The translations under genes were made by a program, and so were the position numbers. A stretch of DNA of 33,827 nucleotides, from the NCBI GenBank assembly GCA_016281895.1, contig JAEEJM010000123.1:1-33827 (forward strand). Reading direction: 5' to 3'. This stretch comes from Clostridiales bacterium. Its GTDB lineage: Bacteria; Bacillota; Clostridia; Oscillospirales; CAG-272. Below, in pieces: positions 12,996-28,132 of this stretch (within the stretch, counting starts at the first letter, position 1; every line of letters begins with the position of its first letter). The notes under the pieces were generated by a model, which worked only from the letters and a program-made list of their open reading frames with translations, was not told the DNA's origin and ran no database searches.

Positions 12996-13023
12996 TTGCA
13001 AAAAGTTAAAAATATGTTAAAAT
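12996..13023 (+). promoter_or_regulatory. Promoter of comEC
   Basis: TTGCAA-N16-TAAAAT; the -35 box coincides with the ORF track's TTG start, so the coding start is probably downstream. Confidence 0.6.
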
Positions 13024-13049
13024 ATAGTCAAAAACTGCCGGAGGTCCGC

Positions 13050-15482
13050 TTGGAGATACTGAAGGGGAGGCCGGCGGCCGTCTGCGCCGCCGTATGCGTT
13101 ATGCTGGCCGTCGCGGCCCGCTATTTCGGAGGAGCCGCCGCCATGGCCGCGGCGGCGGCAACGCTGGTCATCGGCGCCGCCGCGCTGCTCATATCGGGGA
13201 AAAGGAGGTCGGGCTACAGGCTGTTCTCGGTCCTGCTGGGGCTTGGCGTCTGCCTGTGCATGTGTCTGCGCTGCGGGCTTTATTACTCGCGCGCAGAGAA
13301 GACGGCCGCGGAGCTCTGCGGCGGGGGCAGGCGGGTCGAGGGGTACGTAACTGAGGAGGGGAGGGCCTATTCCTATCTCTCGGAGTACCGGGTCAGGCTG
13401 ACCGCCGTCGACGGCAGGCCCGTCTCGGCCGACGCCGTCCTCAGCTGCGCCTACGCGGCGGATATGTACGAGGGCTGCCGTTTTGCCGTCGGCGGCACGG
13501 TGATAACCCCCGCGGACGGCCTGGAGGCCGGGAGCTTCGGCAGCGGCGCAGACGTCCTGGTCAGCTCCGAGACCTACGACGATCTCGATATAACAGGCGG
13601 CGGCTCCTCGCCGTCCGTGACGGCCGGCAGGATCGGCAGGAGGCTCTCGACGGAACTCAGGCGCGCGCTCGGCGGTAAGGAGGGCGAGCTCGCGGCAAAG
13701 ATCCTGCTTGCCGACGGAGATCCCGGTCCGCTCGTCACCCGCGACTGCCGCCGCTCGGGAGTGTCGCACCTGCTTGCCGTCAGCGGCATGCATCTTGCGG
13801 TCATATCGGGGCTGCTGGAGAAGCTCCTTGCCGCGCTGGGGGCGGGGAAGAACCTCAGGATCTTTGCAGTGTCGTCGGCTGCCCTGTTTTATCTGTTCAT
13901 ACTCGGCTTTCCGCTCAGCGCCGTCCGTTCGGCGGCCATGCTGGCGCTTGCCTACGCCGGCTTCCTGTCGGGAGCCTCGCCCGACGGACTGTCGTCGCTG
14001 GCCGCGGCCGTATCCGGGATCCTGTTCGCAAGTCCCGCCTCGTGCGCTGACATAAGTTTCGTGCTGACCGTGTGCGCCACACTCGGCATGACGACTCTCG
14101 GGGGACTCATGTCGTCGCGTCTCAGGGTCCTGCGCTCCCGCAGGGACCTCACACTGCGGCTGTTCAGGGGCCGCGCCGGGGGCAGAAGGGCCGCGCGCCT
14201 TTTCGGCGTCCTGGACGCCGCCGTCGACAGGACCGCCGTTGCCGCCGCCTGCTGCGCGGCGGTGAACGTGTTCACTCTGCTCCCGGTCGCCCTCTCCTTC
14301 GGCGAGATCTCGCTAGCGTCCTTCCCGGCAAACGTTGTGCTGCCGCCCGTCGCCTTCGGGATCATGATCCTCTCGGTGCTCAGCCTCGTCTGCCTGCGTC
14401 TGCCTTTCCTCGGCGGCATGTTCGCCTATTACGCGAGGCTGCTGTGCACTGCCTTCATAAGGATGACCTCGCGCATATCCTCGCTCCGCGGCGTCGTGCT
14501 GTCGCTGAGATACCCGTTCGTCCCGTACATCCTTGTCCCCGTCACGGTCTGCACCGCCGCCATGCTCATTCTCCGGCTGAGGAGGAAATGGCTCATTGTT
14601 TTTCCCGCGGCGGCGGGGGCAGCCGTCTTCGCGGCGTGCCTGTTCATCACAGCCTCGCTCGTTCCGGGGACCACGGTCGTGATAAGGGGCGGCGACGGCT
14701 CCCCCGGCGGCAGCGAGACCGCGGCCGTCTTCCGCGGCAGAAGCGCCGCGGTCATAGACATGTCGTCGGGCTCGTCTTCAGCCCTCAGGGAGGCGCTCGG
14801 CGACGCCCGCTCCGGAGGCGCCACCGAGATCGGCGCGCTCATCCTTACGCACTACCATTCGAGGCACGCGCCGGCGGTGAGCTACTTCACCGCGGCCAAC
14901 ATGGTCAGGAGCGTCTGGGCGCCCGAGCCCGCGACGGCAGAGGACATCGCCTGTCTCCTGAAACTTGCGGAGGTCTGCCGGTCGAACGGCGTCCCGCTTA
15001 CGGTCTACGATCCGTGGCGAGAGCTCACCGTCCTCGGCGACGCCGTCCTCAGATTCTCCGGACCGTGCGGGATCTCGCGCTCGTCGCACCCCTGCGTCTG
15101 CTTTTCCCTCTGCCGCGGCTGCAGGTCGCTGCTCTATTGCGGCTGCTCGGCGTGGGAGTCGCCCGAGGTACGGCGGATGTTTCTGGAAGGGGAGAGGTAC
15201 GACATTGCCGTCCTCGGAGTGCACGGGCCGGTGCCCAGGACGGCCCCGCTGTCCCCGGTCTTCGGGGATGAGCTCACGGTCTACCGCAGCCCCGAACTGC
15301 CGGCCTATGCGGTGCCGTACGACCCGGAGGCGCTGTCCGTGATGAAGCGCGGGACCGCGGCGGTCAACGCCGGCGCACTGAAACTCACGCTCGGAGACGC
15401 CGCCTCAGCGGCGAATCAGAGGTCCGTTTTTTCGGAAAAATCTATTGACAAAAACGGTATTTGTGCTATAATGAGTCCGTAA
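13050..15482 (+). CDS. comEC: ComEC/Rec2-family DNA uptake protein, with degenerate C-terminal MBL domain
   Basis: N-terminal OB-like region (VEGYVTEEGRAYSYLSEYRVRL), competence domain HLLAVSGMHLAVISG, multiple TMs, C-terminal LILTHYHSRHAPAV. Start at TTG 13050 behind GGAGGT (13040-13045); ORF track start is 12996. Confidence 0.88.
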   Translation: MEILKGRPAAVCAAVCVMLAVAARYFGGAAAMAAAAATLVIGAAALLISGKRRSGYRLFSVLLGLGVCLCMCLRCGLYYSRAEKTAAELCGGGRRVEGYVTEEGRAYSYLSEYRVRLTAVDGRPVSADAVLSCAYAADMYEGCRFAVGGTVITPADGLEAGSFGSGADVLVSSETYDDLDITGGGSSPSVTAGRIGRRLSTELRRALGGKEGELAAKILLADGDPGPLVTRDCRRSGVSHLLAVSGMHLAVISGLLEKLLAALGAGKNLRIFAVSSAALFYLFILGFPLSAVRSAAMLALAYAGFLSGASPDGLSSLAAAVSGILFASPASCADISFVLTVCATLGMTTLGGLMSSRLRVLRSRRDLTLRLFRGRAGGRRAARLFGVLDAAVDRTAVAAACCAAVNVFTLLPVALSFGEISLASFPANVVLPPVAFGIMILSVLSLVCLRLPFLGGMFAYYARLLCTAFIRMTSRISSLRGVVLSLRYPFVPYILVPVTVCTAAMLILRLRRKWLIVFPAAAGAAVFAACLFITASLVPGTTVVIRGGDGSPGGSETAAVFRGRSAAVIDMSSGSSSALREALGDARSGGATEIGALILTHYHSRHAPAVSYFTAANMVRSVWAPEPATAEDIACLLKLAEVCRSNGVPLTVYDPWRELTVLGDAVLRFSGPCGISRSSHPCVCFSLCRGCRSLLYCGCSAWESPEVRRMFLEGERYDIAVLGVHGPVPRTAPLSPVFGDELTVYRSPELPAYAVPYDPEALSVMKRGTAAVNAGALKLTLGDAASAANQRSVFSEKSIDKNGICAIMSP
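15445..15472 (+). promoter_or_regulatory. Consensus promoter with extended -10 for the riboswitch/ABC operon
   Basis: TTGACA-N16-TATAAT preceded by TGC; lies inside the last codons of comEC. Confidence 0.88.
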
Positions 15483-15495
15483 TACGAATACGCAT

Positions 15496-15564
15496 ACTTA
15501 TATAATTTCTGAGATATGGTCAGAGAGTCTCTACCGGGCTTCCGTAAACAGTCCGACTATAAGT
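15496..15564 (+). ncRNA. Purine riboswitch aptamer, guanine class
   Basis: ACTTATA(P1)-TAAT-TTCTGA-GATATGG-TCAGAG-AGTCTCTACC-GGGCTTCCGTAAACAGTCC-GAC-TATAAGT(P1'). P1 fully complementary; conserved L2 GATATGG and L3 CCGTAAA; J3/1 C at the position equivalent to xpt C74. Confidence 0.93.
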
Positions 15565-15602
15565 TGGTTCTTGCTTCGTTTGACGACGGGGCGGTCTTGT
15601 TT

Positions 15603-15635
15603 CGGGACCCGGGATCATCCGGGCCCGTTTCTTTT
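15603..15635 (+). terminator. Intrinsic terminator, expression platform of the riboswitch
   Basis: CGGGACCCGG-GATCAT-CCGGGCCCG then TTTCTTTT. Confidence 0.8.
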
Positions 15636-15671
15636 GCTGTGAATTCAATCATATAAAAAGGAGTAAGAATT

Positions 15672-16886
15672 ATGAAAAAGATTCTTTCCGCGATCCTCGT
15701 CGTATGCATGATCCTGTCTCTTGCTCTCTCCGTCGTGTCCTGCAGCACCAGCAAGACCATTACGAAAGAGAACATCAAGATCGGTCTCATCACGCTGCAC
15801 GACGATTCCTCCACCTACGACAAGAACTTCATCGAGTCGATGAAGAGAGCCCTGCAGGATCTCGGCATCAAGGAGGAGCAGCTCGTGCTCTCCACCTCCA
15901 TCGAAGAGACCAGCCAGTGCTACGACACCGCGAAGCAGATGGTCAAGGACGGCTGCGACGTCATCTTCGCCGACTCCTTCGGACACGAGGCCTTCCTGCT
16001 CCAGGCCGCCCAGGAATTCCCGAAAGTGAAGTTCTGCCACGCCACCGGCACTATGGCCCACACCGCCAAGCTCGACAACTTCTCCAACGCCTTCGCCGCC
16101 ATCTATGAGGGCAGATACCTCGCCGGCATCGCCGCCGGAATGAAGCTCAAGGAAATGATCGACAGCGGCAAGATCACCGCCGAGCAGGCCATCGTCGGCT
16201 ACGTCGGCGCCTACACCTACGCCGAGGTCATGTCCGGATACACCTCCTTCTTCCTCGGCGTCCGCTCCGTCGTTCCGTCCGCCACTATGAAGGTCAGGTT
16301 CACCGGTTCCTGGTACGACACCGATACCGAGTACTCCGCCGCCAAGGCGCTCATCGAGACCGACAAGTGCGTCCTCATCTCCCAGCACGCCGACTCCTAC
16401 GGAGCCCCCAACGCCTGCGAAGAGGCCAAGGTCCCCAACATCTCCTATAACGGCAGCACCGAGAGCCAGGGTCCCAACACCTATATCGTCTCCTCCAAGA
16501 TCGACTGGGCTCCCTACTTCAAGTACATGATCAACTGCACCATCGAGGGCAAGGTCATCGACAAAGACTGGACCGGCACCATCGACACCGGCTCCGTAGT
16601 CCTTCTCGACCTCTCCAAGAACGCCGCTGCCGGCACCCAGGAGGCCATCGACAGCGCCAAGGCCGCTCTCAAGGCCGGCACCCTCCACGTGTTCGACACC
16701 TCCAAGTTCACCGTCGGCGGACAGACCCTGACCACCTACAAGGCCGACGTCGACACCGACGACAAGTACACGCCCGACACAGAGGCCATTAAGGACGGCT
16801 ACTTCCATGAATCCGAGTACCGTTCCGCCCCGTACTTCAACATCAAGATCGACGGCATCTCCATCATCGGCGACGAGAAATACTGA
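15672..16886 (+). CDS. BMP-family nucleoside-binding lipoprotein (ABC substrate-binding protein)
   Basis: Lipobox LSVVSC; IKIGLITLHDDSSTYDKNFIESMKRAL, FADSFGHEAFLLQAA; followed by matching ATPase and two permeases; AAGGAG RBS. Confidence 0.92.
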   Translation: MKKILSAILVVCMILSLALSVVSCSTSKTITKENIKIGLITLHDDSSTYDKNFIESMKRALQDLGIKEEQLVLSTSIEETSQCYDTAKQMVKDGCDVIFADSFGHEAFLLQAAQEFPKVKFCHATGTMAHTAKLDNFSNAFAAIYEGRYLAGIAAGMKLKEMIDSGKITAEQAIVGYVGAYTYAEVMSGYTSFFLGVRSVVPSATMKVRFTGSWYDTDTEYSAAKALIETDKCVLISQHADSYGAPNACEEAKVPNISYNGSTESQGPNTYIVSSKIDWAPYFKYMINCTIEGKVIDKDWTGTIDTGSVVLLDLSKNAAAGTQEAIDSAKAALKAGTLHVFDTSKFTVGGQTLTTYKADVDTDDKYTPDTEAIKDGYFHESEYRSAPYFNIKIDGISIIGDEKY

Positions 16887-16909: not shown

Positions 16910-16939
16910 GGCAAAGCGGAGCTCCGGCTCCGCTTTGCC
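16910..16939 (+). other. Intercistronic 13-bp hairpin between the lipoprotein and ATPase genes
   Basis: GGCAAAGCGGAGC-TCCG-GCTCCGCTTTGCC. Confidence 0.85.
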
Positions 16940-17003: not shown

Positions 17004-18623
17004 TTGGAAAAGAAGATCGCGCTGGAGCTTCGAGGCATATCGAAGCATTTCGGAATGATACGGGCCAACAGGGACATAAGCCTCTCTCTGTACGAGGGCG
17101 AGATCCTGGCCCTCCTCGGCGAGAACGGCTCGGGCAAGACGACCCTCATGAACATGATCTCCGGCATCTATTACCCTGACGCGGGCGACATCTTCGTCCA
17201 CGGGGAGAGGGCGGTCATCAGTTCCCCGAGGGAGGCCTTCGGATACGGCATAGGCATGATCCATCAGCATTTCAAACTGGTGGATACCTTCACCGCCGCC
17301 GAGAACATAATCCTCGGCACTGCGGAGAAATACGACATGAGGCGGGTCAACGCCCGCGTAGGCGAGATCGCCGCAAGATACGGTTTCGAGATAGACCCCA
17401 AAAAGCGGGTCCACGAGATGTCCGTCTCGGAGAAGCAGACGGTCGAGATCATAAAGATCATCTTCCGCGGAGCGGACATACTCATACTCGACGAACCGAC
17501 GGCGGTCCTTACGCCCCAGGAGATCGAAAAACTCTTTGCCATCCTGCGCAACATGAAGGCGGACGGCAAGTCTATCATAATAATCACCCACAAGCTGAAC
17601 GAGGTCATGGAGATATCCGACCGCGTATCCATCCTGCGCAAGGGCGCGTACATCGGTACCGTGAACACGGCCGAGACCGACGAGAAGCAGCTGACGGAGA
17701 TGATGGTCGGCCAGAAGATAGATCTTGAGATAAACCGCGTTCAGATCGAGAAGAAGAGCCCGCTGCTCGAGATCCGCGACCTGAGCATCCGGGCCGACGA
17801 CGGCAGCCTGGCCATCGACGGGGTGAGCTTCTACATCCGCGGCGGCGAGCTGCTGGGCGTCGCCGGCATCACCGGCTGCGGCCAGAAGGAGCTCTGCGAG
17901 GCCATCGCCGGCCTCCGGCCGATAGAGTCCGGCGCCATAATACACAAGGGCGAGTCCATCGTCGGCCTGCCGCCCAGGGAGATCATCGAGAAGGGCGTCT
18001 CCATGAGCTTCATCCCCGAGGACCGTCTCGGGATGGGCCTGGCGCCGTCGTTCTCAATAACCGACAACATGATGCTCAAGACCTACTCCGAAGGCTCGAC
18101 GCCTTTCGTTGACCGCCGCAGCGCAAGGAGCAGGGCGGAGGCCCTGATAAAGCGCCTGGACATCGTGACGCCGTCCACCGAGACGCCTGTGCGGCGCCTG
18201 TCGGGAGGCAACGTCCAGAAGGTGCTGGTCGGGCGCGAGATCGAATCCGGGCCGAACGTCATAGTGACGGCCTATCCGGTGCGGGGCCTCGACATCAACT
18301 CCTCGTACCTCATATACGACATCCTCAACGAACAGAAGAAGCGCGGCGTCGGCATTCTTTTCGTGGGAGAGGATCTTGACGTCATGCTTGCCCTCTGCGA
18401 CAAGATCATGGTCCTCTGCCACGGCAGGGTCATGGGCATCGTCCACGCGTCCAAGGTGACCAAGGACGAGCTCGGACTCATGATGACCGGCGCGGTCGAT
18501 CTTACGAGGGAACAGAAGGACAAGCACTTCGGGATAGCCAGCGACTCGGCCCTCTCGCCGGACGAGTGGGCGGACGTCGGGCGCCGGCCCGGAGCCGACA
18601 GAGGGGAGGCGGACTCGGACTGA
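17004..18623 (+). CDS. Nucleoside ABC transporter ATPase (two nucleotide-binding domains)
   Basis: GENGSGKTTLMNMISG, ILILDEPTAVLTP, LSGGNVQKVLVGREIESGPNVIVTAYPVRGLDI. TTG 17004 behind GGAG preferred over the ORF-track start 16935, which lies in the hairpin. Confidence 0.92.
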   Translation: MEKKIALELRGISKHFGMIRANRDISLSLYEGEILALLGENGSGKTTLMNMISGIYYPDAGDIFVHGERAVISSPREAFGYGIGMIHQHFKLVDTFTAAENIILGTAEKYDMRRVNARVGEIAARYGFEIDPKKRVHEMSVSEKQTVEIIKIIFRGADILILDEPTAVLTPQEIEKLFAILRNMKADGKSIIIITHKLNEVMEISDRVSILRKGAYIGTVNTAETDEKQLTEMMVGQKIDLEINRVQIEKKSPLLEIRDLSIRADDGSLAIDGVSFYIRGGELLGVAGITGCGQKELCEAIAGLRPIESGAIIHKGESIVGLPPREIIEKGVSMSFIPEDRLGMGLAPSFSITDNMMLKTYSEGSTPFVDRRSARSRAEALIKRLDIVTPSTETPVRRLSGGNVQKVLVGREIESGPNVIVTAYPVRGLDINSSYLIYDILNEQKKRGVGILFVGEDLDVMLALCDKIMVLCHGRVMGIVHASKVTKDELGLMMTGAVDLTREQKDKHFGIASDSALSPDEWADVGRRPGADRGEADSD

Positions 18624-19771
18624 TGACCGGAAAGAATATGCAGAAACAGAGACCGGTCCGAGAGCCTCTGTTCCATGTGAGCAAGAACAACGCCCTGCCT
18701 GTGTGGAAGGGGCTGCTCTACCGCGCCGCGGCCGTCCTTGCCGCCATGCTGCTGACGGGACTGCTCGGGGTCCTGCTCGTCAGGAAGAACCCGCTGGAGA
18801 TCTACGCGGCGATCTTCAAGGGGCCGTTCATAGACATATGGACGCTGCTCCAGAACACGGCCGTGCTGCTGGGCTTCGCCCTGGCGGTGGTCCCGGCCTT
18901 CAAAATGAAGTATTTCAACATGGGCGCGAACGGTCAGGTGCTCGTGGGCTGCCTTGCCGGCATCGCCTGCATGAAGTTCCTCTCGGGCGCGTTGCCCGAC
19001 TGGCTGGTCATAATCCTCATCATAGCGGCCTCGGTCGCGGCCTCGGTGGTGTTCGCCCTGATACCGGCGGTGTTCAAGGCATTCTTCGACACGAACGAGA
19101 CGCTGTTCACGCTTATGATGAACTACGTGGCGATCGGCCTCGTGGACTACATGGTCTTCGTGTGGGACAAGAGCGGCTCGGGGACGCTGGGCATCGTCAA
19201 CCTGTTCTCGCACGCCGGCTGGTTCCCGAACATAATCAACAAATACTTCCCGTCGGTGCTGGTCGTCGCCCTGATGACGGTCTTCATGACGGTCTACATG
19301 AAGTATACCAAGCACGGCTTCGAGACCGCCCTTGTCGGCGAGAGCGTCAACACGGCCAGGTACGTCGGCATCAACGTCAGGAAAGTCATCATAAGGACCC
19401 TGGCCCTGTCCGGCCTCATGTGCGGCATAATGGGGGCGCTCTACGCGGGCTCCATCGAGCACACGGTCAACGCCTCGGTCGGCGGCAAGGGCTTCACCGC
19501 CATACTTGTCGCCTGGCTGGCTAATTTCGATCCTCCTGTCATGGCCCTTGTGTCGTTCCTCGTCATGTTCCTGACATCGGGCACCGAGTACGCGGCGGCC
19601 TCGCTGAGGCTGGGCAGCAACGACTTTGCCTCCATAACGGTCGGCATCGTCTTCTTCTTCGTGATGGCGTCCGAGTTCTTCATCAGGTACAACGTGCAGC
19701 TCACCGACCGCGGAAGAAAGGTCTTCCGCGTCCGCGAGAAACAGAGTGAAGAGAAAGGGGGGACTGCCTGA
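18623..19771 (+). CDS. Nucleoside ABC transporter permease
   Basis: Polytopic, LLRKNPLEIYAAIFKG-like region, FKMKYFNMGANGQVLVG; TGATG overlap with the ATPase gene; ORF track start 18566 overlaps the ATPase. Confidence 0.88.
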   Translation: MTGKNMQKQRPVREPLFHVSKNNALPVWKGLLYRAAAVLAAMLLTGLLGVLLVRKNPLEIYAAIFKGPFIDIWTLLQNTAVLLGFALAVVPAFKMKYFNMGANGQVLVGCLAGIACMKFLSGALPDWLVIILIIAASVAASVVFALIPAVFKAFFDTNETLFTLMMNYVAIGLVDYMVFVWDKSGSGTLGIVNLFSHAGWFPNIINKYFPSVLVVALMTVFMTVYMKYTKHGFETALVGESVNTARYVGINVRKVIIRTLALSGLMCGIMGALYAGSIEHTVNASVGGKGFTAILVAWLANFDPPVMALVSFLVMFLTSGTEYAAASLRLGSNDFASITVGIVFFFVMASEFFIRYNVQLTDRGRKVFRVREKQSEEKGGTA

Positions 19772-20748
19772 TGCTGGGCGGTATCAACATAGTCAACATA
19801 CTGACCGACGCCATCGCCATGGGCACCGTGTTCCTCTTCGGCTGCGTCGGCGAGACTCTCACGGAAAAGGCCGGCAATCTCAACCTCGGTATACCCGGGA
19901 TCATGTGCTGCGGCGCGCTCGGCGGCGGCCTGGGCGTCTGGATCTGCAGCGCCGGAGCCACAGACGCCGCGGCCTCGCCCGGCTGGGTCTTCGTTACCGT
20001 ATCCGTCCTGCTGGCGATGGTGTTCGCCGCGGCGGCCGGTCTGATATACGCCTTCCTTACGGTAACTCTCAACACCAACCAGAACATCGCGGGCCTGGCG
20101 CTCACCACCTTCGGCGTGGGCGTGCTCCGGTTCTTCTCGAAGAAGATCAACAACGACATAGTCTTCCACGGGGCCAGCCGCTACTTCAAGAACCTGTTCG
20201 GCTACTCCGGAAGCGGGGCCTTCGGCAGGATCTTCCTCTCTCACGGAATACTGGTCTACCTGGGCATTATCATAGCCGTCTGCGCCTCGTTCTTCCTCAG
20301 GAAGACCCGCACGGGACTGGCTCTCAGGGCCGTCGGCGAGAACCCCGCCACGGCTGACGCGGTTGGCATCAACGTCTCGGCCTTCAAGTACGCCTTCGTG
20401 CTCATAGGCAGCGCTGTCGCCGGCCTCGGAGGGCTGTATTACGTGATGGACAAGTCGAACGGCACGACCTTCTCGGAGGCTGCCATAGACACCTTCGGCT
20501 GGATGGCCGTGGCGCTGGTCATCGCCACCATGTGGAAGCCCGTGCTCTCGATCTTCGGCTCGATCCTCTTCGGAGGTCTCTACGTCCTGTCGGCCTATCT
20601 GCCGCTCTCGTTCAACCAGCTCAAGCTCTTCGGCATGGTGCCGTATCTCATCACGGTCCTTGTGCTGATAGTCATACGCCTGCTCAACCGCAGGGACAAC
20701 CAGCCTCCCGCATCGCTGGGGCTCTCCTACTTCAGGGAGGACCGCTAG
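19771..20748 (+). CDS. Nucleoside ABC transporter permease, second subunit
   Basis: LTEKAGNLNLGIPGIMCCGAL, GLALRAVGENPATADAVGINV; TGATG overlap with the preceding gene. Confidence 0.92.
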   Translation: MLGGINIVNILTDAIAMGTVFLFGCVGETLTEKAGNLNLGIPGIMCCGALGGGLGVWICSAGATDAAASPGWVFVTVSVLLAMVFAAAAGLIYAFLTVTLNTNQNIAGLALTTFGVGVLRFFSKKINNDIVFHGASRYFKNLFGYSGSGAFGRIFLSHGILVYLGIIIAVCASFFLRKTRTGLALRAVGENPATADAVGINVSAFKYAFVLIGSAVAGLGGLYYVMDKSNGTTFSEAAIDTFGWMAVALVIATMWKPVLSIFGSILFGGLYVLSAYLPLSFNQLKLFGMVPYLITVLVLIVIRLLNRRDNQPPASLGLSYFREDR

Positions 20749-20941: not shown

Positions 20942-20970
20942 AATTATAACTATAAACTGGGGTAGTGGCC

Positions 20971-21873
20971 ATGTTTGATCAATTTTCCGGAGTAGGCGAT
21001 TTTTTCAGGGAGGTCTTCGGCGAGAACTTCCTTACGTCGGTGAGATCCATCACTCTGGTGGACATCGTCGACATCCTTCTGCTGTCCGTGTTCCTGTTCT
21101 ATATATACAGGTTCATCAGGGCCAGGCGCGCCGGCACGCTTGCGGTCGGTCTCGGTCTGGTCATAGCTGTGCTGCTCCTCAGCGTGATCTTCAACATGAG
21201 GGCCATCAGGTACATCCTCCAGAACTTTTATCAGGTGGGCCTTATCGCGTTCATCGTGATCTTCCAGGCCGACCTGAGGGCGGGTCTCGAGCGGGTCGGC
21301 ACGACATCGCTGAAGAACTTCAGACCGGTCAGCGAGGCCGACATCCGCGAGACCGAGCAGATGGCCTCCGTGGTCGCCGAGACCGCGGGCAAGCTCTCCG
21401 GCAGCAAGGTCGGAGCGCTCATCGTCATCGAGCGCGAGACCAAGCTCGGCGACTACCTGTCCCAGGGCGTCATAGTGAACGCCGAGCTGTCCTCCGAGCT
21501 GCTCTGCAACATCTTCTTCGACAAGGCCCCGCTGCACGACGGAGCCGTGATAATACGCGACAACAAGCTCCACGCCGCCGGCTGCTACCTGCCGCTCTCG
21601 CTGGCTGACGTCAACAAGGAGCTCGGTACGCGCCACCGCGCCGCCCTCGGCCTGTCCGAGCAGAGCGACGCCCTGGTGATCGTCGTCTCCGAGGAGACCG
21701 GCACCATATCAGCCGCCATGAACGGCGAACTCACGCGCAACTACAACTCGGTCTCGCTCAGGGCCCTTATCACCGACTACATGATCGCCGAGACCGGCGC
21801 GGTCCAGCGCATAGGCAAGGGCATCAGGGGCATAGGCACGCGCAGGAACAGCGAAAAACCGGAGGACAAGTGA
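20971..21873 (+). CDS. cdaA: Membrane diadenylate cyclase CdaA/DacA
   Basis: Three N-terminal TMs, FFDKAPLHDGAVIIRDN and LGTRHRAALGLSEQSDALVIVVSEETG. ATG 20971 or GTG 20965. Confidence 0.96.
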   Translation: MFDQFSGVGDFFREVFGENFLTSVRSITLVDIVDILLLSVFLFYIYRFIRARRAGTLAVGLGLVIAVLLLSVIFNMRAIRYILQNFYQVGLIAFIVIFQADLRAGLERVGTTSLKNFRPVSEADIRETEQMASVVAETAGKLSGSKVGALIVIERETKLGDYLSQGVIVNAELSSELLCNIFFDKAPLHDGAVIIRDNKLHAAGCYLPLSLADVNKELGTRHRAALGLSEQSDALVIVVSEETGTISAAMNGELTRNYNSVSLRALITDYMIAETGAVQRIGKGIRGIGTRRNSEKPEDK

Positions 21874-23009
21874 TGAAGGACGCGCAGAGAGACCGCGGCG
21901 GGGAAGCGGCCGAAAAGAAGAACCTTTATATCATCCCCAGGATCATCTGTCTCGTCCTTGCCTTCGTGATCTGGCTCTACGTTATAAGCGTGACCAGCGA
22001 GACCTCCGAGAAGACCTTCACCCTCATCGAGATCAAGGTCGAGGGTACGGACACCCTGGCAGAGAATACCAACCTGTCGATCTACGACATCAGCGAGGGC
22101 AAGCTCAGCGTGACCGTGTCGGGCTCGCGCAAGGACATATCCCAGCTGTCATCCTCCGACTTCATAGCCTACATCGACGTCTCCGGCCTCAGGGAGACCG
22201 GCAAGCAGACCGTCCCGGTCAAGGTCAGCGTGCCGGCGTCGGTGTCGCTGAAGTCATACTCGCCGACCGGCATCGTGATCTACACCGACGAGCGAATAAC
22301 CAGGGACATAGACGTCACTTGCCGCCCGTCGGCCTTCTCCATGCCGACGTCGTTCTCGTTCGGCTCCATCACTTCCGAGGTCGGGTCAGTCAGTGTCACC
22401 GGACCCGCGGCTGTCGTGTCTAAGATCGCCGAGGTCAGGGCCGACCTCAACCTCTCCGGCCAGTGGATCACCACGAGCTTCGTCCACAACGCCGAGCTCA
22501 CGCCCGTCGACTCAGAGGGTCGCCCCGTCGAGAGCCAGTACCTCTCCATGGACCGCGAGAACGTCAACGTCAACGTTCAGATAATGACGTCCACGGTGCG
22601 CCCGCTCGAGGTCGCCTACGCCGCCGACGCCGACCGCTCGCAGATAGAGTCGGTGACGGTGTCGCCCGCCTCGCTGAAGCTCGAGGGCGAGGCCTCGCTG
22701 ATCTCGTCCATCGGCAACCTTGTAATATACACGGTCACAGGCACCGAGACGGGGCCCGTGAACGTGCCCACGTCCGCGATAAAGCTGCCGGCCGGAGTCG
22801 GCATCGTCAACGATCCCGGGACGGTCACCGTGACCGTCACCTTCGTCCCCGTCGTCCCCGACACCGAGCAGCCGCCCGACACCGAGCAGCCGCCCGACAC
22901 CGAGCAGCCGCCCGAGACCGGACCCGAGCCCGTCACCGAACCGGCTGAGCCGACAGGCGGCTCGCCGCAGACCGGCGAAGGAGCCGTGGACGGCATAACG
23001 GGAGGCTGA
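21870..23009 (+). CDS. cdaR: YbbR-domain protein CdaR (regulator of CdaA)
   Basis: N-terminal TM, repeated YbbR-like beta domains, located directly after cdaA. Confidence 0.9.
   Translation: MMKDAQRDRGGEAAEKKNLYIIPRIICLVLAFVIWLYVISVTSETSEKTFTLIEIKVEGTDTLAENTNLSIYDISEGKLSVTVSGSRKDISQLSSSDFIAYIDVSGLRETGKQTVPVKVSVPASVSLKSYSPTGIVIYTDERITRDIDVTCRPSAFSMPTSFSFGSITSEVGSVSVTGPAAVVSKIAEVRADLNLSGQWITTSFVHNAELTPVDSEGRPVESQYLSMDRENVNVNVQIMTSTVRPLEVAYAADADRSQIESVTVSPASLKLEGEASLISSIGNLVIYTVTGTETGPVNVPTSAIKLPAGVGIVNDPGTVTVTVTFVPVVPDTEQPPDTEQPPDTEQPPETGPEPVTEPAEPTGGSPQTGEGAVDGITGG
22860..22913 (+). repeat. Three perfect 18-bp tandem repeats encoding (DTEQPP)n near the cdaR 3' end
   Basis: gacaccgagcagccgccc at 22860, 22878 and 22896. 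Confidence 0.95.
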
Positions 23010-23011
23010 CC

Positions 23012-23536
23012 GTGACATCCAGGGCCACCGTCGTCAGCGTCGACGGCGATTTCGCAACGGTCGAGACCGGCCGCATGTCTGCCTGCGAGGGCTGCCACAA
23101 ACAGACCGGCGACGGCGGCTGCTCGGCCTGCACCCTCATGGGGGGCGGCGGCAAGACCGCCAGGACCCGCGCCATCAACACCGTCGGTGCGAAGCCCGGC
23201 GACAGCGTTACCGTCGAGAGCCGCTCGGGCGTCATTCTTTTTTACTGTTTTCTGGTTTTCATCCTCCCCGTGGCCGTATCTATCGGGGTCTATTTCGCTC
23301 TTTGCGGCGTGATAAGGGAATCCCTTGCGCTTCTGGCCGCCTTCGGCGCTCTCTCGCTGTGCATGCTGGGGGTGTCGGTCTACTCCCGCTCGGCGGGAAA
23401 GAGGCGCTGCGACGCCGAGATAACCGGGATAGTATCCTCCGCGCCCGTCGGACCCGACGGGTCCGCTGGGAGTGACGCCGCCCCGGCAAACGAGGACGGC
23501 GTCCCGGCCGGCGGGAACGGTACCGCAGGCAGCTGA
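23012..23536 (+). CDS. RseC/MucC-family (SoxR-reducing system-like) membrane protein
   Basis: ATVVSVDGDFATVETGRMSACEGCHKQTGDGGCSAC followed by two TMs. Confidence 0.75.
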   Translation: MTSRATVVSVDGDFATVETGRMSACEGCHKQTGDGGCSACTLMGGGGKTARTRAINTVGAKPGDSVTVESRSGVILFYCFLVFILPVAVSIGVYFALCGVIRESLALLAAFGALSLCMLGVSVYSRSAGKRRCDAEITGIVSSAPVGPDGSAGSDAAPANEDGVPAGGNGTAGS

Positions 23537-23557
23537 ACGCGGCGCCGGTATGTTTTG

Positions 23558-23586
23558 CCCTTCCGGCCCGGCCGGACGGGAGTTTT
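23558..23586 (+). terminator. Probable terminator after the rseC-like gene
   Basis: CCCTTCCGG-CCCGG-CCGGACGGG then AGTTTT. Confidence 0.5.
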
Positions 23587-23613
23587 GTGACTGTTCATTT
23601 TTAATGATAATAT
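23585..23613 (+). promoter_or_regulatory. Candidate recJ operon promoter
   Basis: TTGTGA-N17-TAATAT. Confidence 0.5.
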
Positions 23614-23643
23614 GTACATGTGAAAGTGATTGTGACTCGAGTT

Positions 23644-25881
23644 ATGAATTCGAATGAAAAAAAGAAAAGATGGGTATTGCGGGAACCGGCCTTCCCGGAC
23701 GCAGACAGGGCCGAGAGAGAAAAGATAACGGGCAGGATAGCGGCCCAGTTCAACATTCCTACGTGCCTGGCCGAACTCATGTTCGACCGCGGCTGCGGCT
23801 CGGTCGAGGCCGCCGCGGCCTTCATCCACAACAACTACATCTCGGGCAGGGACCCCTTCCTGCTCACCGACATGGACAGGGCCGTCGCCCGCATAAAGAG
23901 AGCCATAGGGGACAGCCGCGAGAAGGTCGCCATCTTCGGCGACTACGACGTCGACGGCGTCACCTCCGTCAGCGCGCTCTATCTTTATCTGGTGTCGCGC
24001 GGCGTGCATGCCGGCTACTACATCCCCATGAGGGCAGACGGCTACGGCATGAGCCGCGAGTCGGTCGACCGCCTGGCCGAGCGGGGCGTAACCCTCATCA
24101 TAACCGTCGACACGGGGACCACATCCATTGAGGAGATCGAATACGCGGCCTCGCTGGGCATCGACACCGTCGTGACGGATCACCACGAGTGCCGCCCCGA
24201 GCTTCCCCCCGCGGTGGCCATCGTCAACCCGCACAGGCCGGGCGACACATACCCCTTCCGCGAACTTGCCGGGGTGGGAGTCACATACAAGCTGATCTCC
24301 GCCCTCGAGATGGACCGCGCGGACGCCGAAGGCAGGGACCGCTTCGAGGCCGAACGTGCCGTGCTGCTGAAGTACGCCGACCTCGTCGCCATAGGAACCG
24401 TCGCGGACGTCATGCCGGTCGTAGACGAGAACCGGATGCTCGTGTCGTTCGGTCTGAAGAAGATCCAGTCGTCGCCCCGCAAGGGCATCGCCGCCCTCAT
24501 CGAGGCCTCATCCAGGAAGAAGGAGCAGAGCCGCGATATAACGGCCAGCTTCATAGGCTTCACCATCGCCCCGAGACTCAACGCCGCCGGCCGCATGGAC
24601 AACGCGTCTCTGGCCGTCGAGCTCCTGCTGTCAGAGAGCGACGACGAGGCCTCCGAGATCGCCGCCCAGCTGTGCGAGATCAACCTGTCCCGCCAGATGG
24701 AGGAGAACAGGATAGCCTCCGAGGCAATAGCCAGGATACAGGAGGACGAGTCCTTCTTCGACGACAGCGTCATAGTGCTCGACGACGACAAATGGCGCCA
24801 GGGCGTCATAGGCATCGTCGCGTCGAGGCTGACGGAAAAATACGCAAAACCGACCATCCTCGTCACCTTCGAGGGCATGAGGACGCCGGGGCTGCCGTCG
24901 CCGCTCGACGTCGGCAAGGGCTCCGGGCGCTCGGTCAAGGGCATGAATCTGGTTTCGGCCCTGTCGTACTGCGACGGGCTGCTGCTGCGCTACGGCGGGC
25001 ACGAGCTTGCCGCCGGCCTCTCGGTGACGCGCGGCAACCTGCCCGAGTTCCGCCGCAGGCTGAACGAATACGCGAGGTCCCAGTTCGGAGACCTCGACTT
25101 CACCGTGACGTACGAGGCCGACATGGAGATATCCGCCTCGCAGATCACGCTGGACCTTGCCGAGAACATAAAGAAGCTCATGGAGCCCTGCGGGACCGGC
25201 AATCCGCCCCCTGTGTTCATACTCAGGGACGCGCGGGTGGTATCGCTGCGGCCGATCAGCGACGGCAAGCACACCAAGATCCTCGTCGAGAAGGACGGCC
25301 TCCGCTTTCAGGCCATCTTCTTCGGCATGTCTCCGGCCTCGCTCAACTACGACCAGGACGATTCCGTCGACCTGCTGTTCACGCTCAGCGTGAACAGGTA
25401 CATGGGCGAGACCTCCGCCCAGCTCATTCTTCAGGACATGAGCTTCTCGACCAGATTCTTCCGCCAGAGGGTGGAGGACCGCAGGAAGGTGGCCGAGCTC
25501 ATGGCCGGCGCCGTCTTTTCCCAGTCGGACCGCTATCTGCCCGACCGGACCGACTTTGTCAACTTCTACGGCGTCGTGAACGATCTCATCCGCGGAGGGA
25601 GGGACTCCTTCAGCGACCAGTACATCATGTTCCTGATGAACAGGCGCTTCCCGGCGGACCGGAAGATAAACTACGTGAAATACAAGCTGCTGCTGGCCAT
25701 CTTCGCGGAGCTCGATCTGCTGAAGGTCAGCCAGTATCCCTGCGTCCCCGATTCCCAGGCCAGCGAATGGGCCCTCCCCCAGGACTACGTGTCGGTCGTG
25801 AGGGTGAGCCATCCGGTCAAGGTCGATCTCGAATCCTCGGTGCTGCTCCGCAACCTCAGGGCGCAGTGCGGGGACACCTGA
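23644..25881 (+). CDS. recJ: Single-stranded-DNA-specific exonuclease RecJ
   Basis: VAIFGDYDVDGVTSVSALY, VVTDHHE, GVGVTYKL, APRLNAAGRM, GGHELAAGLSV. Start at ATG 23644 preferred over GTG 23620 because of the promoter placement. Confidence 0.95.
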   Translation: MNSNEKKKRWVLREPAFPDADRAEREKITGRIAAQFNIPTCLAELMFDRGCGSVEAAAAFIHNNYISGRDPFLLTDMDRAVARIKRAIGDSREKVAIFGDYDVDGVTSVSALYLYLVSRGVHAGYYIPMRADGYGMSRESVDRLAERGVTLIITVDTGTTSIEEIEYAASLGIDTVVTDHHECRPELPPAVAIVNPHRPGDTYPFRELAGVGVTYKLISALEMDRADAEGRDRFEAERAVLLKYADLVAIGTVADVMPVVDENRMLVSFGLKKIQSSPRKGIAALIEASSRKKEQSRDITASFIGFTIAPRLNAAGRMDNASLAVELLLSESDDEASEIAAQLCEINLSRQMEENRIASEAIARIQEDESFFDDSVIVLDDDKWRQGVIGIVASRLTEKYAKPTILVTFEGMRTPGLPSPLDVGKGSGRSVKGMNLVSALSYCDGLLLRYGGHELAAGLSVTRGNLPEFRRRLNEYARSQFGDLDFTVTYEADMEISASQITLDLAENIKKLMEPCGTGNPPPVFILRDARVVSLRPISDGKHTKILVEKDGLRFQAIFFGMSPASLNYDQDDSVDLLFTLSVNRYMGETSAQLILQDMSFSTRFFRQRVEDRRKVAELMAGAVFSQSDRYLPDRTDFVNFYGVVNDLIRGGRDSFSDQYIMFLMNRRFPADRKINYVKYKLLLAIFAELDLLKVSQYPCVPDSQASEWALPQDYVSVVRVSHPVKVDLESSVLLRNLRAQCGDT

Positions 25882-25894
25882 TACGGAGGCGCAC

Positions 25895-28132
25895 ATGTCA
25901 GACGACGCAACGGCCGTCCGGTCCCGCGAGATCCTGGAACGGTTCGAAAAACTCATAACCATACTCGACGCCTCCGGCAGCCAGTACAACACCGAGAAGA
26001 TCCGCCGCGCGTTCGAGTACGCCTCGGCGCTCCACGAGGGCCAGTTCCGCGACAGCGGCGAGCCTTACATATCGCACCCGCTGGCCGTGGCCGAGATAGT
26101 CGCGGGCCTGCACCTGGACACTGATTCCATTTGCGCCGCCCTGCTGCACGACACTGTCGAGGACTGCGCAGACCGCACGAACCTGACAGAGCTCGAGAAG
26201 CAGTTCGGCAAGACCGTCGCCATGCTGGTGGACGGCCTTACGAAGATCGTCGCGCTATCGGTCGAGGACAAGGAAGAGGAGCACATCGAGAACCTGCGCA
26301 AGATGCTCCTGGCCATGTCCCGGGACATACGTGTCATCTTCATAAAGCTCTGCGACCGCCTGCACAACATGCGGACTCTCGGTGCCAAGCCCGAGAACAA
26401 GCAGAGGATCATCGCCCTCGAGACCATGCAGGTCTACGCGCCGCTGGCCCACAGGCTCGGCATGCAGAAGGTCAAGCAGGAACTCGAGAACCTCGGCCTG
26501 CTGTACCTCGACCCCATAGGCTACCGCGAGGTCAGGGACGACATAGAAAAGAAATACGGCAACCACAGGGACTTCATCGACAGCGTGCGGTCGTTCGTCG
26601 ACACCAAGCTGACCGAATACGGGATCAGGTTCTCGCTCGAGGGGCGCATAAAGACGGTATACTCGATCTACAAGAAGATGTATACCCAGAACAAGAGCTT
26701 CGACGAGATCTACGACTTCTACGCCCTGCGCATAATAGTCGAGACGGAGCTCGAGTGCTACACCGTCCTCGGCATCATCCACGAGCTCTTCAACTCGATC
26801 CCCGGCCGCTTCAAGGACTACATATCCACACCGAAGCCCAACATGTACCGCTCGCTCCATACGACGGTCATAGGCCGCGACGGCATACCGTTCGAGGTCC
26901 AGATCCGCACGCGCGAGATGCACGAGATAGCCGAGTACGGTCTGGCCGCCCACTGGAAGTACAAGACGGGCGAGCAGAGCGGCGCGGAGCTCGACAAGAG
27001 GCTCGAATGGATAGCAAAGCTGATCGAGACCGAGGACGCCACCCGCGACCCCGACGAGTTCCTGGCGGCGCTCAAGACCGACGTCTTCCACGACGAGACC
27101 TACGTGTTCACTCCCAAGGGCGACGTCATCGCCCTGCCTTACGGCTCGACGGTCATTGACTTCGCCTACAGCATCCATTCCGCCGTCGGCAACAAGATGG
27201 TCGGCGCCAAGATAAACGGGATGATAGTGCCCATCGACCGCGTCCCGCAGAACGGCGAGATCGTCGAGATCATCACCTCGTCGGCGTCCAAGGGGCCGAG
27301 CCGCGACTGGCTGAACATCGTACGGACCTCGGAGGCGCGCACGAAGATCCGCGCCTGGTTCAAGAAGGAGAAGAGGGCGGAGAACATCCAGGTCGGGCGC
27401 GCCGCCATAGAGACCGAGCTGCGCAAGTCCGGACGGCCCTTCACGGACGCCCAGCTGAACGCGGTCTGCGAGGCCGTGGCCGGGCGCAACGGCTTCTCCA
27501 ACGCCGAGGACATGTTCAACACTATCGGCTACGGAGGGATACCGCTCACCAAGCTCATAGCCAAGCTGCGCGACGAGTTCGACCGCCAGGTGAGGCCCGA
27601 GGAGCCCGAGGTACCCATGACCACGGAGGACGTGGTCACATCGAAGCCGAAGAACATACGCACCGACAGCGGCGTCATAGTGGACGGGGCCGCGGGGTGC
27701 GCCGTCAAGTTCGCGAAGTGCTGCACACCGCTCCCCGGGGACCCGATCATCGGCTTCATTACAAAAGGCTTCGGGATCTCCGTCCACAAGCTCGACTGCC
27801 CCAACGTCCGCAACGGACTGCAGGTGCCCGAGCGGGCCGACAGATGGGTCAGGGTCGAGTGGGAGAACGCCTCGTCAGCCGCGGCGGGCGTCTACGAGTC
27901 CAACATCCGCATAGTGGCATCCGATTCGTACACCGTCATAGCCGATATCACGAGCGCGCTGGCCGACATGCGCGTCGCCATCCTTCAGATAAACTCGATG
28001 CACCGTCAGGACGGGACGGTATCCGTCTCCGTCAAGGTAGCGTGCAAGAACACGGACCACTTTAATTCCATTGTATCGAGACTGCGCGCTCTCAGGAACG
28101 TGCACACGGTCTCAAGAGGATTCTCACAATGA
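25895..28132 (+). CDS. rel: Bifunctional (p)ppGpp synthetase/hydrolase Rel (RSH)
   Basis: HD motif LLHDTVED, CDRLHNMRTL, RFKDYISTPKPNMYRSLHTTV, EVQIRTREMHEIAEYGLAAHWKYK, TGS VFTPKGDVIALPYGSTVIDFAY, C-terminal ACT. Confidence 0.98.
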   Translation: MSDDATAVRSREILERFEKLITILDASGSQYNTEKIRRAFEYASALHEGQFRDSGEPYISHPLAVAEIVAGLHLDTDSICAALLHDTVEDCADRTNLTELEKQFGKTVAMLVDGLTKIVALSVEDKEEEHIENLRKMLLAMSRDIRVIFIKLCDRLHNMRTLGAKPENKQRIIALETMQVYAPLAHRLGMQKVKQELENLGLLYLDPIGYREVRDDIEKKYGNHRDFIDSVRSFVDTKLTEYGIRFSLEGRIKTVYSIYKKMYTQNKSFDEIYDFYALRIIVETELECYTVLGIIHELFNSIPGRFKDYISTPKPNMYRSLHTTVIGRDGIPFEVQIRTREMHEIAEYGLAAHWKYKTGEQSGAELDKRLEWIAKLIETEDATRDPDEFLAALKTDVFHDETYVFTPKGDVIALPYGSTVIDFAYSIHSAVGNKMVGAKINGMIVPIDRVPQNGEIVEIITSSASKGPSRDWLNIVRTSEARTKIRAWFKKEKRAENIQVGRAAIETELRKSGRPFTDAQLNAVCEAVAGRNGFSNAEDMFNTIGYGGIPLTKLIAKLRDEFDRQVRPEEPEVPMTTEDVVTSKPKNIRTDSGVIVDGAAGCAVKFAKCCTPLPGDPIIGFITKGFGISVHKLDCPNVRNGLQVPERADRWVRVEWENASSAAAGVYESNIRIVASDSYTVIADITSALADMRVAILQINSMHRQDGTVSVSVKVACKNTDHFNSIVSRLRALRNVHTVSRGFSQ

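Follow-up and report, generated by a model that had tools for sequence, protein, structure and literature searches.

The window, a 33,827-nt stretch of DNA from a Clostridiales bacterium, carries a predicted guanine-I riboswitch that very probably acts as an OFF switch, terminating transcription of a BMP-type importer operon when guanine is plentiful. Folding calculations point to a 16-pair antiterminator helix that would compete with the aptamer, and the substrates of the importer itself are probably free purine bases (guanine, xanthine and hypoxanthine), destined for phosphoribosyltransferase salvage. The elements of the leader are as follows:

15445–15472, + strand: sigma-70-type promoter (TTGACA-16 nt-TATAAT) with 12/12 consensus bases.
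15478–15579, + strand: RF00167 purine riboswitch aptamer, flanks included (full-model cmscan match; covariation in relatives).
15495–15565, + strand: three-way-junction core (Rfam match, 51-row alignment, covariation).
15495–15502/15558–15565, + strand: aptamer helix P1.
15506–15512/15520–15526, + strand: aptamer helix P2.
15535–15541/15549–15555, + strand: aptamer helix P3.
15534–15551, + strand: predicted antiterminator 5' strand (end of J2/3, 5' strand of P3, L3 and the first bases of the P3 3' strand), forming 16 pairs with 15597–15612.
15553–15567, + strand: hairpin predicted by folding to absorb the P1 3' strand when the antiterminator has formed.
15571–15594, + strand: spacer hairpin, predicted by folding in both states.
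15597–15612, + strand: antiterminator 3' strand predicted by folding, containing the terminator 5' arm (15603–15612).
15603–15635, + strand: intrinsic terminator, consisting of a stem-loop at 15603–15627 (−17.0 kcal/mol) and the tail TTTCTTTT at 15628–15635.

The cmscan match to the Rfam Purine model, RF00167, covered the full model (1–102/102) with a score of 78.2 bits (E 1.5e-12), and it was the only match in the window above the gathering score of 37. The same search revealed no second copy elsewhere in the draft genome (1.83 Mb in 194 contigs, 86% complete). The initial annotation had proposed a guanine-class purine aptamer here, with an Infernal search of this model as a check; the match is significant and full-length, and the stems, the loops (GATATGG in L2 and CCGTAAA in L3) and the key bases all lie where they had been placed. 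An alignment of the window aptamer with 50 others from relatives (51 rows) provided further support for the fold, with 82.9% of the cells in helices P1–P3 paired, versus 30–37% in slid controls, and both partners varying in 20 of the 22 helix pairs.

The same alignment bears on the class of the aptamer. The equivalents of U22, U47, U51 (15532 in the window) and C74 (15557) are invariant in all 51 aptamers, the window's included, and are the bases expected of the guanine-I class; the adenine class would have U rather than C at 15557. Xanthine-II riboswitches have G at the 51 equivalent, a two-nucleotide insertion in J2/3 and an insertion in J3/1, while the guanine-II class retains U51 but has a one-nucleotide J2/3 insertion along with other junction changes like those of xanthine-II (PMC9295807). 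Neither description fits the window aptamer, which has U51 and shows no insertion in J2/3 or J3/1 in the Rfam alignment. By its sequence it is a canonical guanine-I aptamer, and the ligand predicted for it is that of the class.

The promoter is situated directly upstream of the aptamer, with TTGACA at 15445 and TATAAT at 15467, the latter preceded by TG. A comEC-like ORF (12996–15482, with the Competence domain PF03772) spans the whole of this promoter and stops just past the −10 box; the riboswitch promoter therefore lies inside the 3' end of an open reading frame. At the other end of the leader, the terminator that had been recognized after the aptamer in the initial annotation is indeed present, as a stem-loop followed by a TTTCTTTT tail.

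To relate the aptamer to the terminator, we folded transcripts of increasing length. The aptamer was the best fold for transcripts ending up to 15610, but with 15612 transcribed the helix between 15534–15551 and 15597–15612, which competes with it, took over and was favored by 4.6 kcal/mol at 15615–15620 (at 15618, −42.2 versus −37.6 kcal/mol). From 15626, when the 3' arm of the terminator has emerged, the combination of aptamer and terminator was best again (−46.3 kcal/mol). In the full-length transcript without ligand, the aptamer–terminator fold was ahead by just 0.8 kcal/mol at 15636, and since these energies differ by less than 1 kcal/mol the switching model needs kinetic control. The P1 3' strand, considered as the main partner of the antiterminator, was not found in that role by folding; the best alternative was P3/L3. 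The earlier statement that there was no clear antiterminator is consequently superseded by the 16-pair helix through J2/3, P3 and L3, which had been overlooked because it invades this region and not mainly the P1 3' strand.

In the model that we draw entirely from these folding calculations, RNA polymerase would start just past the promoter and the aptamer would fold first. With guanine (or hypoxanthine) bound, P1 and P3 would hold, the antiterminator would be blocked and the terminator stem-loop would form, leaving the operon OFF. With no ligand, the emerging 15597–15612 segment would pair with 15534–15551, unwinding P3 and P1; P3 would be destroyed, the P1 3' strand would be drawn into the hairpin at 15553–15567, and the terminator 5' arm would be sequestered, so that transcription would run into the importer operon (ON). 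A terminator accompanied by a pairing that, by folding prediction, excludes both it and the aptamer is the arrangement expected of a transcription-terminating OFF switch. Together with the aptamer class, it supports the ligand-dependent termination of a four-gene operon suggested in the initial annotation, as a predicted OFF switch.

The specificity of the pairing was assessed by shuffling and by exchanging parts between loci. The duplex between aptamer and arm has an energy of −22.3 kcal/mol, and a fraction of 0.010 of 300 shuffled arms was as good. The window arm pairs with its own aptamer better than with 52 of 53 others (ranking 2nd of 54 aptamers), while the window aptamer pairs with its own arm better than with all 29 others (1st of 30 arms). 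We used this specific duplex test in place of the total folding gain over the aptamer fold at 15618, which was dropped as proof of switching after 126 of 500 shuffled linkers gave as large a gain. In the relatives, own aptamer–arm pairs beat chance as a set of non-independent loci (mean percentile 0.31, KS p 2e-4), and in many individual relatives the swap analysis found no comparable pairing. The antiterminator mechanism is not uniform across the relatives.

Two readings in which the leader is not an ordinary guanine switch deserve consideration. The initial annotation had observed that the U51 equivalent is kept and that the U at the 48 equivalent is replaced by C, and both observations hold (the latter base is at 15529). 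The C48 base could flag a variant specificity, of the 2'-deoxyguanosine, xanthine-II or guanine-II type, as position 48 is unlike that of the xpt reference and variant classes do exist on this scaffold (PMC9295807). We consider such a variant highly improbable, however, given the canonical U22, U47, U51 and C74 equivalents and the lack of an insertion in J2/3 or J3/1. Moreover, 10 of the 51 aligned aptamers, the window's among them, have C at position 48 (the other 41 have U), and those with C have the same gene contexts; as their pockets are otherwise canonical, C48 was dismissed as a sign of an altered ligand. It is just as improbable that the leader has decayed, keeping its aptamer but losing ligand control of expression. 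The riboswitch is carried by 11 of 13 genus members, and decay might be suspected from the other two (L173 in G008 and L174 in G009), in which the orthologous importer operon follows a leader with promoter-like sequence and a similar tail but with no aptamer or terminator detected, which suggests that the riboswitch was lost there. Searches with our model R1 and with Rfam found no divergent riboswitch before these or the other orthologues lacking a hit (G008, G009, G015, G016 and G020–G023). The window leader, in contrast, retains all pocket bases and its promoter is strong; its terminator has a U-rich tail, and the predicted antiterminator is a precise match.

The four genes 3' of the riboswitch encode a BMP-family lipoprotein, an ABC ATPase and two permeases:

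15672–16886, + strand: BMP-family substrate-binding lipoprotein, 404 aa, lipobox Cys24, of the AtzT/3S99 branch (PF02608, E 2e-25; AlphaFold2 and Foldseek).
16910–16939, + strand: hairpin of 13 pairs in the gap separating the lipoprotein gene from the ATPase gene (folding).
17004–18623, + strand: ABC ATPase with two ABC domains; its TTG start is assigned from the preceding GGAG.
18623–19771, + strand: permease 1 (BPD_transp_2), whose ATG overlaps the ATPase stop codon.
19771–20748, + strand: permease 2 (BPD_transp_2).

The lipoprotein is a member of the Bmp/PnrA-like family PF02608, with a score of 89.8 bits against a curated cut-off of 24.1, and no NCBIfam equivalog scored above cut-off for any of the importer proteins. 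Strong hairpins are found at the lipoprotein–ATPase junction in most relatives, and the one in the window perhaps sets a higher level of lipoprotein than of the membrane subunits. Directly downstream of the operon, the window (20965–28132) encodes a CdaA-type diadenylate cyclase, YbbR, RseC-like, RecJ-like (assigned by eye) and RelA/SpoT proteins, so genes for c-di-AMP and (p)ppGpp synthesis are its neighbors.

The gene neighborhoods of related riboswitches and importers were surveyed from both directions. Excluding the window's own, 54 aptamers were found in relatives, 35 of which lie before a BMP homolog, either directly (23) or roughly 0.65–1.15 kb ahead of it (12); in most of the 12 distant cases the intervening gene reads as xpt, partly by eye. 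Among 80 orthologous loci from named GTDB genomes, a riboswitch is present at 12 and absent from 68, while 36 have an xpt homolog just upstream and nine have both. The closest of these orthologs come from Clostridia MAGs of the rumen and gut. The xpt gene, of a family that we named from the N-terminus of one member compared with the NCBIfam xanthine phosphoribosyltransferase models, is the commonest upstream neighbor of the orthologous lipoprotein gene. Xpt acts on free bases, and for this reason the neighborhood fits free-base import. In the window genome itself, xpt is on another contig, away from the importer.

Sequence and structure comparisons also favor free bases. The best matches of the lipoprotein were 3S99 (E 1.1e-29) and AtzT (E 1.5e-16), compared with E 1.5e-3 for the nucleoside-binding PnrA, and in Foldseek searches with its AlphaFold2 model (pLDDT 87) guanosine-bound Lbp and PnrA came after 3S99 and AtzT. 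Guanine co-purified with AtzT, which binds it with a KD of about 110 nM, and 3S99 has a purine in its site (PMC6834077). The guanine contacts of AtzT include Ser97, Glu165 and Trp194 (PMC6834077). By alignment mapping, AtzT Ser97-Phe98, Glu165 and Trp194 correspond to S102-F103, E185 and W214 of the lipoprotein, which are invariant in 19 orthologs. Its best sequence and fold matches and this Ser-Phe/Glu/Trp pocket place the lipoprotein in the purine-base branch of the BMP proteins. The AtzT contacts Asn218 and Asn220 do not conform, being replaced by H239 and D241, although His and Asp are also found in 3S99. Y49 aligns with a tyrosine of 3S99, and only by way of that protein is it equated with AtzT Tyr45.

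The same guanine OFF switch could instead control an importer of purine nucleosides (guanosine, inosine), as the initial annotation had proposed. Pfam names the family PnrA-like, characterized BMP relatives bind nucleosides (PMC7093131), 7X0R is a guanosine complex, and the genome has three nucleoside phosphorylase-family genes whose products could cleave imported nucleosides to bases. However, the PnrA match is marginal beside those to the base-binding 3S99 and AtzT, the fold ranking agrees, and the commonest upstream neighbor is xpt. In addition, it is a second BMP protein of this genome, encoded on contig C108, that resembles nucleoside binders: it matches Lbp, PnrA and BmpA/BmpD, and its gene lies near one for a nucleoside phosphorylase. 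That second BMP-type importer cluster (C108:8000–14431, L182) includes a nucleoside phosphorylase-family gene and is without a purine riboswitch. Based on the sequence, predicted fold, pocket, xpt neighborhood and second BMP protein, guanosine or nucleoside uptake is probably the wrong assignment and we consider it unlikely for this importer, with free-base uptake remaining our preferred reading.

The survey also revealed purine aptamers in other settings. One importer operon is preceded by two purine riboswitches (G179:C31:1641–1739 and 2665–2766; L036 and L076), separated by about 1 kb in which no full-length gene is obvious. Lower-scoring purine aptamers precede FAD-dependent dehydrogenase-like genes (M-DVIIIGAGPGGIF..., recognized by eye) at L058, L062, L063, L064 and L070, which is not where a guanine riboswitch is usually found. 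Others (L071, L073, L079, L080 and L083), likewise lower-scoring, precede a gene for a protein of ~570 aa with the P-loop AGPSSSGKTT, which by eye reads like a nucleoside kinase of the uridine-kinase type. At L055 and L059, purine aptamers precede what appears by eye to be a guanine deaminase-like gene.

A guanine riboswitch before purine transport genes has a well-known and ordinary role, this class being known to regulate purine transporters (PMC3766115), while we found no explicit report in the open-access literature of a guanine riboswitch paired with a BMP transporter. What is new here is the refolding model of the switch and the hypothesis of a free-base substrate, both of which are predictions. 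The chances seem to us evenly balanced for the full proposal, that an antiterminator unfolding the P3/loop–loop region controls a widespread clostridial importer of free purine bases that is often encoded with xpt. If it is true, an importer whose present annotation is that of a transporter for nucleosides or of the basic membrane protein type would be a guanine/xanthine uptake system. The riboswitch and xpt neighborhood provide a testable substrate for a generically annotated BMP branch, one that is frequent among Clostridia of the gut and rumen.

Among characterized binding proteins, AtzT (6PI5/6PI6) and the Brucella BMP lipoprotein 3S99 are the closest counterparts to the window lipoprotein, which keeps their Ser, Glu and Trp pocket; it differs from them in sequence (about 19–25% identity), in being a lipoprotein of the Gram-positive type and in its riboswitch control. 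The nucleoside binders PnrA, TmpC, BmpD and Lbp share its Pfam family and ABC transporter organization but are weak matches in sequence. The B. subtilis xpt and yxjA riboswitches (RF00167, guanine-I, transcriptional OFF) have the same aptamer architecture, pocket bases and terminator platform as the window. The yxjA riboswitch likewise controls purine transport, and its helix excludes both the aptamer and the terminator (PMC9756952). That central helix intrudes no further than the base of a long P1, short of the ligand-binding junction, and the xpt switch is believed to behave likewise (PMC9756952). The antiterminator predicted in the window, in contrast to the P1 foot used in yxjA, would reach into the aptamer and take all of the P3 5' strand together with L3; the model thus describes an OFF purine riboswitch with an alternative helix through P3/L3, comparable to the strand exchange at the P1 foot of yxjA.
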